Assembly: GCF_025128055.1 (NCBI RefSeq)
Contig: NZ_JAHLYS010000022.1
Span: 1-64,000, forward strand
Direction of reading: 5' to 3'
DNA from: Synechococcus sp. CS-1329
GTDB lineage: Bacteria > Cyanobacteriota > Cyanobacteriia > PCC-6307 > Cyanobiaceae
DNA length: 64,000 nucleotides
Shown here one piece after another: positions 32,727 through 38,758 of the stretch (position 1 is the first letter of the stretch; each line of letters begins with the position of its first letter). The notes below the pieces were generated by a model. It ran no database searches. It saw only the letters and a list, made by a program, of their open reading frames with translations, and was not told the origin of the DNA. A program made the translations under genes and the position numbers.

Positions 32727-34139
32727 ATGAGCAAGAAGTACGACGCTGGGGTCAAGGAGTACAGAGACACGTACTGGACTCCCGACTACGTCCCCCTGGA
32801 CACCGACCTGCTGGCCTGTTTCAAGGTCACCGGCCAGGATGGCGTTCCCAAGGAAGAAGTGGCCGCTGCCGTGGCTGCCGAATCCTCGACCGGCACCTGG
32901 TCCACCGTGTGGTCCGAGCTCCTCACCGACCTCGACTTCTACAAAGGCCGTTGCTACCGCATCGAAGACGTTCCCGGTGACAAGGAGTCGTTCTACGCCT
33001 TCATCGCCTACCCGCTGGATCTGTTCGAGGAAGGTTCGATCACCAACGTGCTCACCTCCCTGGTGGGCAACGTGTTCGGCTTCAAGGCCCTGCGTCATCT
33101 CCGTCTGGAAGACATCCGCTTCCCGATGGCCTTCATCAAGACCTGCCCCGGCCCGCCGAACGGCATCTGCGTCGAGCGCGACCGGATGAACAAGTACGGC
33201 CGTCCTCTGCTGGGCTGCACGATCAAGCCGAAGCTGGGTCTGTCCGGCAAGAACTACGGCCGGGTGGTGTACGAATGCCTCCGCGGTGGCCTCGACTTCA
33301 CCAAGGACGACGAGAACATCAACTCCCAGCCGTTCCAGCGCTGGCAGAACCGCTTCGAGTTCGTGGCCGAAGCCACTCAGCTGGCCCAGGAGGAGACCGG
33401 CGAGAAGAAGGGGCACTACCTCAACTGCACCGCTTCCACTCCCGAAGAGATGTATGAGCGGGCTGAGTTCGCCAAGGAACTGGGCCAGCCCATCATCATG
33501 CACGACTACATCACCGGTGGCTTCACCGCCAACACCGGTCTGTCGAAGTGGTGCCGCAAGAACGGCATGCTGCTGCACATCCACCGCGCCATGCACGCGG
33601 TGATCGACCGTCACCCCAAGCACGGCATCCACTTCCGGGTGCTGGCCAAGTGCCTGCGCCTCTCCGGTGGTGACCAGCTGCACACCGGCACCGTGGTGGG
33701 CAAGCTCGAAGGTGATCGCCAGACCACCCTGGGCTTCATCGACCAGCTGCGTGAATCCTTCGTTCCCGAAGACCGCAGCCGCGGCAACTTCTTCGACCAG
33801 GACTGGGGCTCCATGCCCGGCGTCTTCGCCGTGGCCTCCGGCGGTATCCACGTGTGGCACATGCCCGCGCTGGTGGCGATCTTCGGCGACGACTCCGTGC
33901 TGCAGTTCGGTGGTGGCACCCACGGCCACCCCTGGGGCTCCGCCGCCGGCGCGGCTGCCAACCGCGTGGCCCTCGAAGCCTGCGTCAAGGCCCGCAATGC
34001 CGGTCGTGAGATCGAGAAGGAGAGCCGCGACATCCTCATGGAAGCCGCCAAGCACAGCCCCGAGCTGGCCATCGCTCTCGAGACCTGGAAGGAGATCAAG
34101 TTCGAGTTCGACACCGTCGACAAACTTGACGTCAACTGA
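32727..34139 (+). CDS. cbbL: Rubisco large subunit, form IA
   Basis: A 470-aa catalytic subunit of ribulose-1,5-bisphosphate carboxylase/oxygenase. The active site is complete: [17 protein letters not shown], the carbamylated Lys with Asp/Glu in [45 protein letters not shown] and [18 protein letters not shown]. It starts [18 protein letters not shown], as form IA enzymes of alpha-carboxysomes do. A strong AAGGAG (32712-32717) lies 9 nt before the ATG. A G-rich/C-rich imperfect hairpin (about 34157-34183) sits in the 105-bp gap before cbbS. Confidence 0.98.
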
Positions 34140-34244: not shown

Positions 34245-34586
34245 ATGCCCTTCAAGAGCACCGTGGGTGACTACCAAACAGTCGCCACCCTGGAGACTTT
34301 CGGCTTCCTCCCGCCGATGTCTCAGGACGAAATCTACGATCAGATTGCTTACATCATTGCCCAGGGATGGAGCCCGCTGATCGAGCACGTCCACCCCAGC
34401 CGTTCGATGTCGACCTACTGGTCGTATTGGAAACTTCCCTTCTTCGGTGAGAAGGACCTGGGCGTGATCGTCAGTGAACTCGAGGGCTGCCACCGCGCTT
34501 ACCCCGACCATCACGTGCGTCTGGTGGGCTACGACGCCTACACCCAGAGCCAGGGTTCCTGCTTCGTGGTCTTCGAAGCACGCTGA
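34245..34586 (+). CDS. cbbS: Rubisco small subunit, form IA
   Basis: A 113-aa small subunit that caps the L8S8 holoenzyme. It shows LETFGFLPPMSQDEIYDQI, WSPLIEHVHPSRSMSTYW and the C-terminal GYDAYTQSQGSCFVVFEAR. AAGGA (34235-34239) lies 5 nt before the ATG. An 11-bp hairpin follows the stop codon and separates the abundant Rubisco mRNA from csoS2. Confidence 0.97.
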   Translation: MPFKSTVGDYQTVATLETFGFLPPMSQDEIYDQIAYIIAQGWSPLIEHVHPSRSMSTYWSYWKLPFFGEKDLGVIVSELEGCHRAYPDHHVRLVGYDAYTQSQGSCFVVFEAR

Positions 34587-34745: not shown

Positions 34746-37157
34746 ATGGCATCTCAATCCAGTCGCGAAGCGGCCCTTGCGCGCCGGATGGCGCTCTCCA
34801 CGGCCGGAAAAACGGCGGAGAAGAGGTATGCCAACAGTGCCAACCGCACCCGCAGCGCCGCTGAGGCCCGCCCCACTCGCTCGATCACCCCGGTGGCCGC
34901 AGCCGTCAGCCGTGAGGCCGACGCGCCCACCAAGCCCCTGTTCAGCGGCAGTGCTGGCCACGGACACTCCAGCTCGCCCCAACAGGTCAGTCGGGCCCCC
35001 ATCAGCAATCCCAGCCGGGATCTGGTGCTGGCCCGGCGTGAAGCCCTGAGCAAGCGCGGCAAGCGTGCCGACACCAGCAAGGACCGCAGCCGCGACAGCA
35101 GCGCCCTGCGCGCCGTCGCCACGCCAGCTCCAGCACCGGTAAGCGCACCGCCTTCCGCCGCCAGCCGTCCCGCTCTCTCCCTGAGCGCCCCTTCGTCCGC
35201 TTCCCTCAGCGATCGCCGCAGCAACGGCAACCGGGCCACGACCAAGCGCTCCGCCCAGTTCAACCCCAGCCGCGCCATCGTCATGGCCCGCCGCGAAGCC
35301 CTCTCCAAGCGCGGCAAGTCGGCGTCCACCAACAGCTCCAGCGGCACCGCCGCCGTGGTGCGCCAATCGAACCCCGACATCAGCAGCCGGGAGCTGGCCC
35401 ATCGCATCCGCGATCTCAAGAGCAAGAACGGCGCCGGAGCCATCAGCCGCGGCACCGGCGTGACCCGTCCCACTGGTCCCCGGCGCGGGCCCGACAGGAT
35501 GGCCGCCGCCGCCCAGGACGCCAGCTGGAAGGTGGGGGCCAGTGAAACGGTGCGCGGTCAGGTGGTGACCGGCACCCAGGCCAATCGTTCCGAGAAGACC
35601 ACCGGCAACGAGGCCAGCACCTGCCGCCCGATCACCGGCACCGAATACATGGGTGCGGATATCTTCCGCACGTTCTGCCAGAGCGAGCCCGAGGCGTTGC
35701 AGCCCGCCAAGGTGCGCGTCACCGCCACCAGCCACGGCAACCGCGTCACCGGCAATGAGGTGGGCCGTTCGGAGAAGGTCACCGGCGATGAGCCCGGCAC
35801 CTGCAAGTCCGTCACCGGCACCGAGTACATCTCGGCGAACCAGGCGGCCGCCTATTGCGGCACCACCTCCGTCAGCCCCCGCAAGGTGGGCCACAGCCAG
35901 ACCGTGGCCGGCAGACCTGTATCGGGTGTGATGGTGGGTCGCTCCGAGCGGGTCACCGGCGACGAGCACGGAGCCGGCATCCAACCCACCGGCACCCAAT
36001 ACGTGGGCTCCGATTCGATCAGCACCCCCGGCATGGCCCCGCCGAAGGTGGCCAGCGTCCAGACCCTGAGGGGCACCGGCATCACCGGAACGCTGGTGGG
36101 CCGCAGCGACAAGGTCACCGGCGATGAGCCCGGCTCTTGCCGTCGCGTCACCGGCGATGAGTACATCGGCAGTCAGCAGTACCAGAACTTCTGCGGCGGC
36201 CGCCCGGAGCCCGAAGCGGCCAAGGTGGGCTTCAGCCTCACCAACAAGCAGTTGATCGTCTCGGGCACCAACACCGGCCGCTCCTCCAAGGTCACCGGCG
36301 ATGAGCCCGGCACCTGCAAAGCCGTCACCGGCACGCCCTACGCCGGCCTTGAGCAGGCCAGCGCCTGGTGCGATTCCTCGGCTGTGCGCGGCATCCGCCA
36401 ACGCACTCCGGCCCGCGCCGGTACCCCCGGGCCGCGCATGAGCGGTCTGCAACCGGGCATCGGTGGGGTGATGACCGGCGCCTCCAAGGGAGCCTGCGAA
36501 CCCGTATCAGGCACCCCCTATGTGGGCGTCGATCAGTACAACGAAGCCTGCAGTGCCGCCCAGGGTCACGAAGCCGATTTTCCCCAGCCGCTGGAGACCC
36601 AGCCCTGGCAGGAGTTCAGCGTGCAGTCACCGGCACGGGCCGCCCATCAGCAACGGGAGCGCAGCTCAGCGGTCACCGGTACCCGCTACGAAACCAGCGC
36701 CAGGATTACCGGCCCTTTTGATCTGGCCGGTGGCAAGGTCACCGGCACCGAGCACGCCCGCTTCGACAAGCGCGGCCCCGAGCCCCAGCCGCTGCCTGCC
36801 GTGCGGCGCCAGACCTCCGTGCTGCCCCCCCGCCCCCAGGCGGCAGCCCCCATGCCCATGGCCCCGATCAGCGTCGATGAAGAGGCGCGGCCCACCAGTC
36901 GCGTCACCGGCGAAGGCATCTCCGCTGGCCTGAACATCACCGGCGACGACTGGGACCGGGGCAAGCGCGTCACCGGTACGGAGGGGGCCTCGGCCCGCCG
37001 CCGCAACCCCACCCGCACCGGGCCGATGACGGCAATGGCCACCATCCCGCTCAAGCGCAATGAAGAGGTGATGCAACCGATCAGCCGTGTCACCGGCTCG
37101 AGCGGCAACACCGACAGGGGCTCATTGATCACCGTCTCCGGCGGCGCTCGAGGCTGA
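34746..37157 (+). CDS. csoS2: carboxysome scaffold protein CsoS2
   Basis: An 803-aa intrinsically disordered scaffold linking Rubisco to the shell. The N-domain repeats lie near residues 5, 88, 173 and 215 (NPSRDLVLARREALSKRGK type), the Rubisco-binding motifs. The M-domain has six repeats from 35529 on (KVGxSxTVxG...RSEKVTGDEPGTC..VTGTEY). The third (35883-36044) lacks both cysteines found in the others. The C-domain (from about residue 645) anchors to shell. The ATG at 34746 gives the family N-terminus ASQSSREAALARR; the frame is open to 34665. A possible -1 frameshift site occurs at codons 656-658 and would yield a 658-aa short form. Confidence 0.96.
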   Translation: MASQSSREAALARRMALSTAGKTAEKRYANSANRTRSAAEARPTRSITPVAAAVSREADAPTKPLFSGSAGHGHSSSPQQVSRAPISNPSRDLVLARREALSKRGKRADTSKDRSRDSSALRAVATPAPAPVSAPPSAASRPALSLSAPSSASLSDRRSNGNRATTKRSAQFNPSRAIVMARREALSKRGKSASTNSSSGTAAVVRQSNPDISSRELAHRIRDLKSKNGAGAISRGTGVTRPTGPRRGPDRMAAAAQDASWKVGASETVRGQVVTGTQANRSEKTTGNEASTCRPITGTEYMGADIFRTFCQSEPEALQPAKVRVTATSHGNRVTGNEVGRSEKVTGDEPGTCKSVTGTEYISANQAAAYCGTTSVSPRKVGHSQTVAGRPVSGVMVGRSERVTGDEHGAGIQPTGTQYVGSDSISTPGMAPPKVASVQTLRGTGITGTLVGRSDKVTGDEPGSCRRVTGDEYIGSQQYQNFCGGRPEPEAAKVGFSLTNKQLIVSGTNTGRSSKVTGDEPGTCKAVTGTPYAGLEQASAWCDSSAVRGIRQRTPARAGTPGPRMSGLQPGIGGVMTGASKGACEPVSGTPYVGVDQYNEACSAAQGHEADFPQPLETQPWQEFSVQSPARAAHQQRERSSAVTGTRYETSARITGPFDLAGGKVTGTEHARFDKRGPEPQPLPAVRRQTSVLPPRPQAAAPMPMAPISVDEEARPTSRVTGEGISAGLNITGDDWDRGKRVTGTEGASARRRNPTRTGPMTAMATIPLKRNEEVMQPISRVTGSSGNTDRGSLITVSGGARG
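36713..36746 (+). promoter_or_regulatory. candidate -1 programmed ribosomal frameshift signal in csoS2
   Basis: In the csoS2 frame the bases read GGC CCT TTT GAT, which contains the canonical slippery heptamer C CCT TTT (36713-36719). A slip by -1 makes the next codon TGA, ending translation at once. Six bases later a perfect 7-bp stem (36726-36732 with 36740-36746, 7-nt loop) could stall the ribosome. Slippery site, spacer and hairpin are all within usual limits. A csoS2 frameshift producing CsoS2A and CsoS2B is known from Halothiobacillus neapolitanus. Confidence 0.55.
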
Positions 37158-37195
37158 TGTTCTCCTTCCCCTCCACCCTGTCGCAGCACTGAACC

Positions 37196-38758
37196 TTGCC
37201 CCGCCCCCGCCGCTACGGCTCCGCCGAGAGGCCCCTGGCTCCCACGGCCCCAGCCCGCCGCCCACCCTCCAGCCTCTCCCTCTCCGGCTCAGCGCCGGGG
37301 AGAGCCGGACGTTTCCCTGCTGCCGTGGAGCCTCACCCGCTCAGCGATCCAGCGGCGAATGAACGCCTGCAGGCCTACGAAAGCGAGGTGAAGCGCTCGT
37401 TCGATCGCATCGTGCCGGTGCTCAAGCAGCTCTCGGCCCTGCAACACGATGACGACTTTGTCGAGCAGGCCCAGCGCCATGCCCTCAAGGAGCTCGGCCA
37501 TGGCTTGCCGCCCACCATCCTCGAGTCGGCCTGGGTGAGCCAGCTCGACATGCGCAGCCTCTTCGCCTGGTGCCTGTTCGAGGCCTACGAGCAGGTCAGC
37601 GCCGGTTTCTTCCGCGACGATCCGCTCCAGGGCCAGGAGGGCAGCGAGAGCGCCGAGGCCTTCAACGCCTTCCTGCTCTCCTGTGGCTTTCATCTGCTGG
37701 ATGTCAGCCCCTGCGCGGATGGCCGTCTGGCCCACGCCATCGCCTACGCCCTGCGTCTTCCTTTCGGCTCCGTGCGCCGCCGGCCCCACGCCGGCGCGAT
37801 GTTCGATGTGGAGAACACGGTGGATCGCTGGGTGCGCACCGAGCATCTGCGCTACCGGGAAGCACGGCCCAACAGCGCCCATGAACCCACCCGCTACCTC
37901 AAGGTGGTGGTGTATCACTTCAGTTCCCGCGACCCCGGCCACGAGGGCTGCGCCGCCCATGGCTCCAATGACGCCGCCGCCGCCGCCGGCGGCCTGCGCC
38001 GCCTGCAGGAGTTCCAGCAGGCCGTGGAGAACAGCTTCTGCTGTGGAGCTTCCGTTGACCTGCTGCTGATCGGGCTCGACACCGACACCGACGCCATCCG
38101 CGTTCACGTGCCCGATGTCAACGGCCACACCGATCTGGACCGCTGGCTCGATGCCCTCGAGGCCTATGCCGCCACCCAGGATCTGCCCGCTGAGGCCGCC
38201 CGCGACCGGCTGCTGGCACTGGTGCTCTCGGCCCGCTCAGGCAACGGCGACACGATCGCCGATGGGGCTGTTGACCCCGGAATGGCGCGGCTCATCACGC
38301 GTCTGATCGAGCACAACATCTCCCAGATCGATTTTGTGCGCGCTTATCACGATGGCGCCTATGCCGATGCAGGCCACGCCGAGCGTTTCATCGGTGTGGG
38401 CATCGGCTTCAAGGAGATTCACCTGCGCAATCTCACCTATTTCGCCCACATGGACACGGTCGAGGAAGGGGCCGCTGATCTCGACGTGGGCGTCAAGATC
38501 TTCAAGGGTCTGAACGTATCCCGCGGGCTGCCGATCCCCGTGGTGATTCGTTTCGATTACCACGGCAGTGTGCCGGGGGCGCGCGAGCGGGCCGTGCTCT
38601 ATTGCCAGCGCACCGAAGACGCCATCTGCAACCGCTATCCCGACCTGGTGGACAGCGGTCTGCTGCACACGCTGCTGAGCGTGCGCGATCGCGACCGCCA
38701 CGTTCCAGCTGAAACGGTCGGCTCATCGATCAAGCTGCACACCAGCGGAGGCCATTGA
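37196..38758 (+). CDS. csoSCA: carboxysomal carbonic anhydrase CsoSCA
   Basis: A 520-aa epsilon-type (beta-derived) carbonic anhydrase that turns HCO3- into CO2 inside the carboxysome. A disordered basic, Pro-rich N-terminus (residues 1-45), the Rubisco-binding part, precedes a helical domain. The catalytic domain follows with the zinc-site pieces VDLLLIGLDTDTDAIRVHVPD and KVVVYHFSSRDPGHEGCAAHG, and the degenerate repeat ends in VPAETVGSSIKLHTSGGH. Translation starts at a TTG (37196), which may keep its level low. The next gene starts 1 nt after its stop. Confidence 0.95.
   Translation: MPRPRRYGSAERPLAPTAPARRPPSSLSLSGSAPGRAGRFPAAVEPHPLSDPAANERLQAYESEVKRSFDRIVPVLKQLSALQHDDDFVEQAQRHALKELGHGLPPTILESAWVSQLDMRSLFAWCLFEAYEQVSAGFFRDDPLQGQEGSESAEAFNAFLLSCGFHLLDVSPCADGRLAHAIAYALRLPFGSVRRRPHAGAMFDVENTVDRWVRTEHLRYREARPNSAHEPTRYLKVVVYHFSSRDPGHEGCAAHGSNDAAAAAGGLRRLQEFQQAVENSFCCGASVDLLLIGLDTDTDAIRVHVPDVNGHTDLDRWLDALEAYAATQDLPAEAARDRLLALVLSARSGNGDTIADGAVDPGMARLITRLIEHNISQIDFVRAYHDGAYADAGHAERFIGVGIGFKEIHLRNLTYFAHMDTVEEGAADLDVGVKIFKGLNVSRGLPIPVVIRFDYHGSVPGARERAVLYCQRTEDAICNRYPDLVDSGLLHTLLSVRDRDRHVPAETVGSSIKLHTSGGH

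Follow-up and report, generated by a model that had tools for sequence, protein, structure and literature searches.

A putative programmed -1 frameshift element in the carboxysome scaffold gene csoS2 of Synechococcus and Cyanobium

The -1 frameshift of Escherichia coli dnaX (tau/gamma) combines the slippery heptamer A_AAA_AAG with a 3' stem-loop, a near-immediate stop and a proven upstream Shine-Dalgarno sequence, and in beta-carboxysomes the short form of CcmM arises by an internal start. For the carboxysome scaffold gene csoS2, a -1 frameshift producing CsoS2A and CsoS2B has been described in Halothiobacillus neapolitanus (Chaijarasphong et al. 2016). As reported for that organism, the slip is located in M-repeat 6 and is followed by a 3' stem, CsoS2A comprises 570 residues of which three come from the -1 frame, and the short form is present in carboxysomes at about 1:1 with the long form. 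The 2016 survey predicted frameshifting in 79 of 162 species, and the signal is described as occurring in most proteobacterial csoS2 genes and as missing from many alpha-cyanobacterial ones. Alpha-cyanobacteria have been portrayed, by way of Cyanobium PCC 7001 and Prochlorococcus, as organisms with one CsoS2, a picture on which accounts of their differing carboxysome size and Rubisco packing have been built. In the accessible texts of the open-licence literature we found no description of a cyanobacterial C_CCT_TTT site in csoS2, and the 2016 survey may include some such genes. Frameshifting in csoS2 is already known; the C_CCT_TTT site of Synechococcus and Cyanobium presented here is a predicted new site.

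The window, a stretch of 64,000 nucleotides from Synechococcus sp. CS-1329, encodes an 803-residue CsoS2 running from ATG to TGA on the plus strand (34746..37157). A profile search matched CsoS2_M (PF12288) over residues 174-602 (E 1.7e-198, 660.7 bits against a cut-off of 22), and the domain lies inside a cso operon, as expected of the scaffold gene: its neighbours on the plus strand are cbbL, encoding the Rubisco large subunit (32727..34139; PF00016, PF02788), and, directly 3' of csoS2, csoSCA (37196..38758; PF20686, PF08936, PF20687). Genes for EutN/CcmL and BMC proteins, two of each, and a ferritin-like gene also lie nearby, and an ORF at 34245-34586 occupies the place of cbbS, an assignment made from position. 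The gap between csoS2 and csoSCA is 38 nt, taking the TTG start of csoSCA from the ORF list. The genome of the window holds one copy of csoS2.

Codons 656-659 of this gene read GGC CCT TTT GAT (GGC at 36711, CCT at 36714, TTT at 36717 as codon 658, GAT at 36720), and the heptamer C_CCT_TTT at 36713..36719 on the plus strand, the sole X_XXY_YYZ heptamer of the gene, fits that pattern exactly in the zero frame. If zero-frame CCT TTT were to re-pair as CCC TTT, the first codon of the -1 frame would be TGA (36719..36721, plus strand). Our re-reading of the sequence agreed with the initial annotation on the coordinates, the frame, the exact fit and the immediate stop, and products of 803 and 658 residues follow directly, the predicted short CsoS2 consisting of residues 1-658, ending in ITGPF and containing no residue from the -1 frame. 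The short form had been said to lack the C-domain; most of the C-region would indeed be missing, but the cut falls inside that region, after ITGPF, and not at its start. As had likewise been noted, CCT and TTT are minority codons, used elsewhere in the gene for 4 of 59 prolines and 1 of 9 phenylalanines.

Behind the heptamer, and separated from it by the 6-nt spacer GATCTG (36720..36725), lies a putative stimulatory hairpin, which like the spacer is read on the plus strand. It had been proposed as a 7-bp stem with a 7-nt loop; its start 6 nt past the heptamer is correct, but its extent is larger, since the 5' arm GCCGGTGGC (36726..36734) and the 3' arm GTCACCGGC (36738..36746) form 9 bp, including one G.U, around the 3-nt loop AAG (36735..36737). 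On the other side, 7 nt 5' of the heptamer, a Shine-Dalgarno-like AGGA (36702..36705, plus strand) that contains the rare Arg codon AGG is a possible stimulator. An upstream ACCGGC (36708-36713) is also complementary to GCCGGT of the 5' arm (36726-36731), and this competing ACCGGC/GCCGGT hairpin could loop out the heptamer when no ribosome is present.

Synonymous shuffling of the window csoS2 (20,000 shuffles) recreated the heptamer in 1.2%, a 7-bp core stem in 2.6% and both in 0.04% of cases, and in 3.1% of 1,500 synonymous shuffles the gene contained, at any position, some A/T-type heptamer whose -1 frame is stopped within three codons. The 54 window genes called with a simple script contain 43 X_XXY_YYZ heptamers in frame, ten of them with Y = A or T; three of the 43 are followed by an immediate -1 stop, and among the ten this holds only for the csoS2 site. 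The same site provides the one instance of CCT TTT among the 25 Pro-Phe pairs of these genes. Judged by dinucleotide shuffles, the hairpin of the single gene is modest (z -1.39, with equal stability in 18 of 200), and it reaches z -2.18 against synonymous shuffles. Since the window hairpin alone is only modest, relatives were compared, and it is from this comparison that the case draws its strength. Transcriptional slippage usually requires a longer run than the four T present here, and was rejected as an explanation.

The comparison drew on 191 loci, in each of which a single TGPF is found at the site, so that no locus was dropped for want of it; they reduce to 165 distinct csoS2 genes (judged by the last 900 nt), 142 cyanobacterial and 23 proteobacterial. 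A family search matched csoS2 in 363 of 400 genomes, with only the better places listed; its loci, 21 of them new, and 80 places of our own choosing were taken. A set of 113 Synechococcus/Cyanobium rows was defined by gene G+C above 0.53, a cut that agrees with a supported split in a CsoS2 protein tree built without the columns of the site. Carriers are genes with CCCTTTT; a wider definition, CCCTTTN (74/113), was tried after a flat pair test, which makes the results obtained with it post hoc.

GGC CCT TTT is present in 71 of the 142 distinct cyanobacterial genes, and the 68 carriers among the 113 Synechococcus/Cyanobium rows are not an unbiased frequency, because places were partly hand-chosen from better matches. 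WH 5701 (L007) is one of the strains with the heptamer. The remaining three carriers (L029, L041 and L051) stand among Prochlorococcus-labelled rows with a gene G+C of 0.36-0.51. Conservation among close relatives was one measure by which the initial annotation had proposed to judge the site, and besides these wider-clade rows the heptamer is kept in all nine sampled genomes of the window's genus, J7-Johnson differing in one spacer codon. An Asp codon GAY directly follows the heptamer in 71 of 71 carrier rows. An exact 17-base core, a pattern that misses J7-Johnson because of its spacer codon, was found in 123 of 400 family genomes and in 88 of the 251 that reach 90% completeness without exceeding 5% contamination; the reversed control gave one match, and all seven places compared fell inside csoS2 places. 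On the tree, the distribution of carriers amounts to 13 changes, 12 of them forced by starred branches. Repeated losses of an old element would fit this pattern, although gains and losses are not distinguishable by counts of this kind.

Within the 113 rows, nucleotides at the site are conserved beyond what the protein needs. GGC CCT TTT is expected 1.49 times from the codon usage of each row's own gene and observed 68 times, a contrast to be read as an effect size and not as a p-value, the rows being related. CCT makes up 68% of codons at its column against 15% gene-wide and TTT 66% against 21%, ranking fourth and seventh among the codon outliers of 344 conserved columns. Rows with GGC and TTT write the intervening proline as CCT in 68 cases and CCC in two; rows with GGC CCT write phenylalanine as TTT in 68 cases and TTC in six; and the glycine before CCT TTT is GGC in 68 of 68, although GGC supplies 57% of Gly codons elsewhere in carriers. 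TTT, not TTC, makes the next -1 codon TGA. These choices bear on the idea that rare codons and a hairpin merely slow the ribosome between the M- and C-regions and thereby aid co-translational assembly, with no slip at all. Rare codons and a strong hairpin are both present, and the published description of CsoS2 as disordered would suit such a pause; a pause, however, has no need of the C before CCT or of TTT over TTC, whereas a slip ending immediately at TGA needs both. The invariant GGC favours a slip, and we regard a pause alone as distinctly unlikely.

The second mark of selection lies downstream. In a synonymous-shuffle scan of all 68 carriers, none of the other positions among 761 is as structured as the 36 nt after the heptamer, whose mean z of -2.25 ranks first (elsewhere z goes no lower than -1.3); the same stretch ranks 231st of 771 in all 45 non-carriers. 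Genome by genome, a stem z of -1.5 or below was reached by 52/68 carriers and 4/45 non-carriers, or by 55/74 and 1/39 when, post hoc, CCCTTTC is counted as slippery. Stem pair 6 is paired in 53/68 carriers and 5/45 others, and pair 7 in 55/68 and 18/45. The stem codons Gly GGT and Val GTC co-vary in carriers (46/2/2/10, Fisher p 5e-8, with relatedness not removed), an association absent in non-carriers. Selection on a 3' structure is indicated for the carriers, the 6-nt distance in the window gene lying in the range of about 5-9 nt expected of -1 frameshift signals, with 13 of the 68 showing no sign of it (z above -0.5); nine of those 13 belong to one 21-row clade.

Synonymous change points the same way. 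In carriers the window from -2 to +8 codons, in which the heptamer is fixed by definition, has the second lowest rate of 403 (O/E 0.41), after the gene start; the nearest such window in non-carriers (-2 to +10) ranks 256/433 (O/E 1.03), and over all 113 rows the window from -2 to +9 ranks 22/401. For windows confined to the stem, where no column is fixed by definition, the ranks are 13-17 of 403 among carriers, 98-109 of 433 among non-carriers and 28-34 of 401 over all rows. Comparisons between branch-disjoint sister pairs were not significant: the carrier stem was the more structured in 5/10 pairs, or, with CCCTTTC counted as slippery post hoc, in 6/9, where randomised pairings mostly gave 7 or 8 of 9. 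A tree-based sign test for the 7-bp stem was not significant either (median p 0.375).

The flat pair tests, together with a nearly invariant peptide, are what one would expect if GPFD and AGxKVTG were fixed by protein function and ancestral codons had simply persisted through chance and shared ancestry. Synonymous sites elsewhere in the carriers nevertheless turn over, with a median of 14 changes per conserved column against 3-6 at stem codons +3, +4, +8 and +9, and the stretch is ordinary in non-carriers, so that we find this account very unlikely. A conserved hairpin within a coding region could also reflect another overlapping DNA or RNA function, such as a small RNA, an antisense gene or a promoter for csoSCA. 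Rfam gave no match within 36400-37200, the -1 frame is closed by TGA, and the three heptamer codons are sensible only in the register of the reading frame; we give such a function next to no credence.

The upstream Shine-Dalgarno-like stretch is a weak element. Among the 68 carriers, Arg is written AGG in 40% of cases at its column against 3.3% gene-wide, the largest codon outlier there, and over all 113 rows the column falls outside the top 25. The best anti-Shine-Dalgarno energies differ weakly between carriers and non-carriers (means -5.35 and -4.71, p 0.0096, with relatedness not removed). In bacterial -1 frameshift signals an upstream stimulator of this kind is optional, and a stimulating role of AGGA in the slip is suggestive only.

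Two further features were observed in individual genes. Among 16 genes listed, a T_TTC_CCC heptamer precedes the main heptamer by 45 codons in L001, L005, L007 and L008 and by 46 codons in L096 and L104, and its -1 frame is open exactly to the TGA that follows the main site; at this position the window csoS2 has TTT CCC and no heptamer. In L006 (Synechococcus sp. RedBA-s), whose csoS2 is also that of L089/L090, the reading frame is lost past the heptamer region and the protein ends early, at 729 residues; the normal C-terminal frame continues separately, reflecting an indel or an assembly error.

A further comparison is provided by Cyanobium PCC 7001, whose carboxysomes are reported to contain one CsoS2 form and whose gene is said, in the accessible part of the published account, to be without a frameshift motif. 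Genome G126 encodes a CsoSCA identical to PDB 8THM, the CsoSCA of Cyanobium PCC 7001, over 461 aligned residues bar the first. Its csoS2 reads GGC CCT TTC (CCCTTTC), followed by a stem with one mismatch (z -1.72) and by a -1 stop only after four codons, and to judge by these letters it is a decayed version of the element. The single PCC 7001 isoform fits a function lost through synonymous change. The PCC 7001-like gene is at the same time a caution that a nearly complete signal may fail to function, and we hold the frameshift reading slightly less firmly because its stem scores as selected despite the one isoform. A strong Shine-Dalgarno-like GGGGGGGAGGA stretch was observed 5' of the decayed CCCTTTC in the PCC 7001-matching genome (L262:7018-7041).

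Taken together, we consider it likely, and hold with good confidence, that the csoS2 site is a selected programmed -1 frameshift element, putatively acting as a conditional stop. A ribosome at C CCT TTT would hold Pro-tRNA in the P site and Phe-tRNA in the A site, and the hairpin 6 nt ahead would detain it, perhaps aided by the upstream Shine-Dalgarno-like stretch. A fraction of ribosomes would then slip one base back to CCC TTT, meet TGA as the next codon and release a CsoS2 of 658 residues, with the whole N- and M-regions and without most of the shell-anchoring C-region, while the remaining ribosomes would continue to the 803-residue protein. What was directly observed is the sequence, the extent to which it is conserved and the signs of selection on heptamer and stem; we infer a rate of slipping high enough to be useful and a short form that would be stable and have a role. 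The short form may act as CsoS2A does in Halothiobacillus, organising Rubisco with no anchor in the shell.

The same slip could serve another end, compatible with this mechanism. Early termination within csoS2 could alter translation of csoSCA, and by lowering the flow of ribosomes into that gene it would set the ratio of scaffold to carbonic anhydrase, the short protein being a by-product. The position of csoSCA directly after csoS2, 38 nt away, and a stop that follows the slip immediately and adds no residues accord with such a use. It leaves unexplained why the product would comprise the N- and M-regions so neatly, a parallel to Halothiobacillus, whose short form is reported from carboxysomes, and we think such a use rather unlikely to be the main purpose of the frameshift element.

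The initial annotation had presented the site as an extension of the Halothiobacillus frameshift to this lineage. A predicted signal in an alpha-cyanobacterium does stand, but it is another heptamer in another place. Of the 70 proteobacterial loci L192-L261, which partly repeat genomes already sampled, 11 have C_CCA_AAR at Pro-Lys, with a stem behind it and a -1 stop after three codons. In the 869-residue CsoS2B of PDB 9ly8, taken as Halothiobacillus by length and name, Pro-Lys stands at 566-567, and three added residues give exactly 570. This site aligns in MAFFT to window residue 574, with the M-repeats allowing other registers further upstream, and lies at least 83 residues upstream of P657-F658 of the window gene. 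No site of that type (C_CCA_AAR in the M-region, its Pro-Lys preceding x(T/S)GD) was found in the window csoS2; among the 165 genes there are ten PKx(T/S)GD occurrences, all proteobacterial and none written CCCAAAR. Conversely, GGC CCT TTT was found in none of the 29 TGPF-bearing genes among the 70 proteobacterial loci (four have GGT CCT TTT) and in none of the 23 other proteobacterial genes. Homology between the two sites was rejected on positions and codons, with the caveat that M-repeats align in more than one register. Because both position and codons differ from the proteobacterial C_CCA_AAR, the cyanobacterial site is a separate element, for which a separate origin is the simplest account. 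A_AAT_TTT occurs at an NFC motif of the M-region in L075 (codon 530), L202, L204, L205 and L213, which are gammaproteobacterial, and its -1 frame closes after three codons. The structure behind it is weak and it was set aside as a further candidate; it is possibly a third csoS2 slip site.

We lean, with moderate confidence, towards the broader view that csoS2 frameshifting arose at least twice, in proteobacteria as C_CCA_AAR in the M-region and in an ancestor of Synechococcus and Cyanobium as C_CCT_TTT in the C-region. Much of the alpha-cyanobacterial lineage would thus make a short CsoS2, and the single-isoform picture would reflect loss of the element, as in PCC 7001 with its decayed copy, or its absence, as in most Prochlorococcus rows. 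Through the element, one csoS2 gene would yield two scaffolds, long and short, in a lineage for which the long form alone is usually described. If many Synechococcus and Cyanobium strains make two forms, carboxysome models, and the use of PCC 7001 as a stand-in for Synechococcus, will need revision. Convergence of a second, separately placed site on a like product would suggest that carboxysomes benefit from a scaffold free of the shell, and the natural synonymous variants (carrier, decayed and lost) offer a ready series for probing the role of the short form.

Compared with known systems, the site shares with that of Halothiobacillus the csoS2 gene, the -1 direction, a slippery sequence beginning C-CC, a GC-rich 3' stem formed from TGD/VTG codons and a product, predicted here, without the shell-anchoring end. 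It differs in that Halothiobacillus slips on C_CCA_AAR at P566-K567 and adds three residues, whereas the window gene would slip on C_CCT_TTT at P657-F658, in the C-region, and add none before its immediate TGA; no Shine-Dalgarno stimulator is noted in the accessible part of the Halothiobacillus account, and the AGGA stretch of the window is suggestive of one. CcmM of beta-carboxysomes, which is reported in long and short forms (PMC4499774), is likewise a carboxysome scaffold whose short form misses one end, as the short CsoS2 is predicted to do, but it is an unrelated protein, and the missing part is the gamma-CA domain. With E. coli dnaX, the csoS2 site has in common an X_XXY_YYZ heptamer, a 3' stem-loop, a stop at or close to the slip and a shorter product, here predicted, with a common N-terminus; the upstream Shine-Dalgarno part, proven in dnaX, is suggestive in csoS2.
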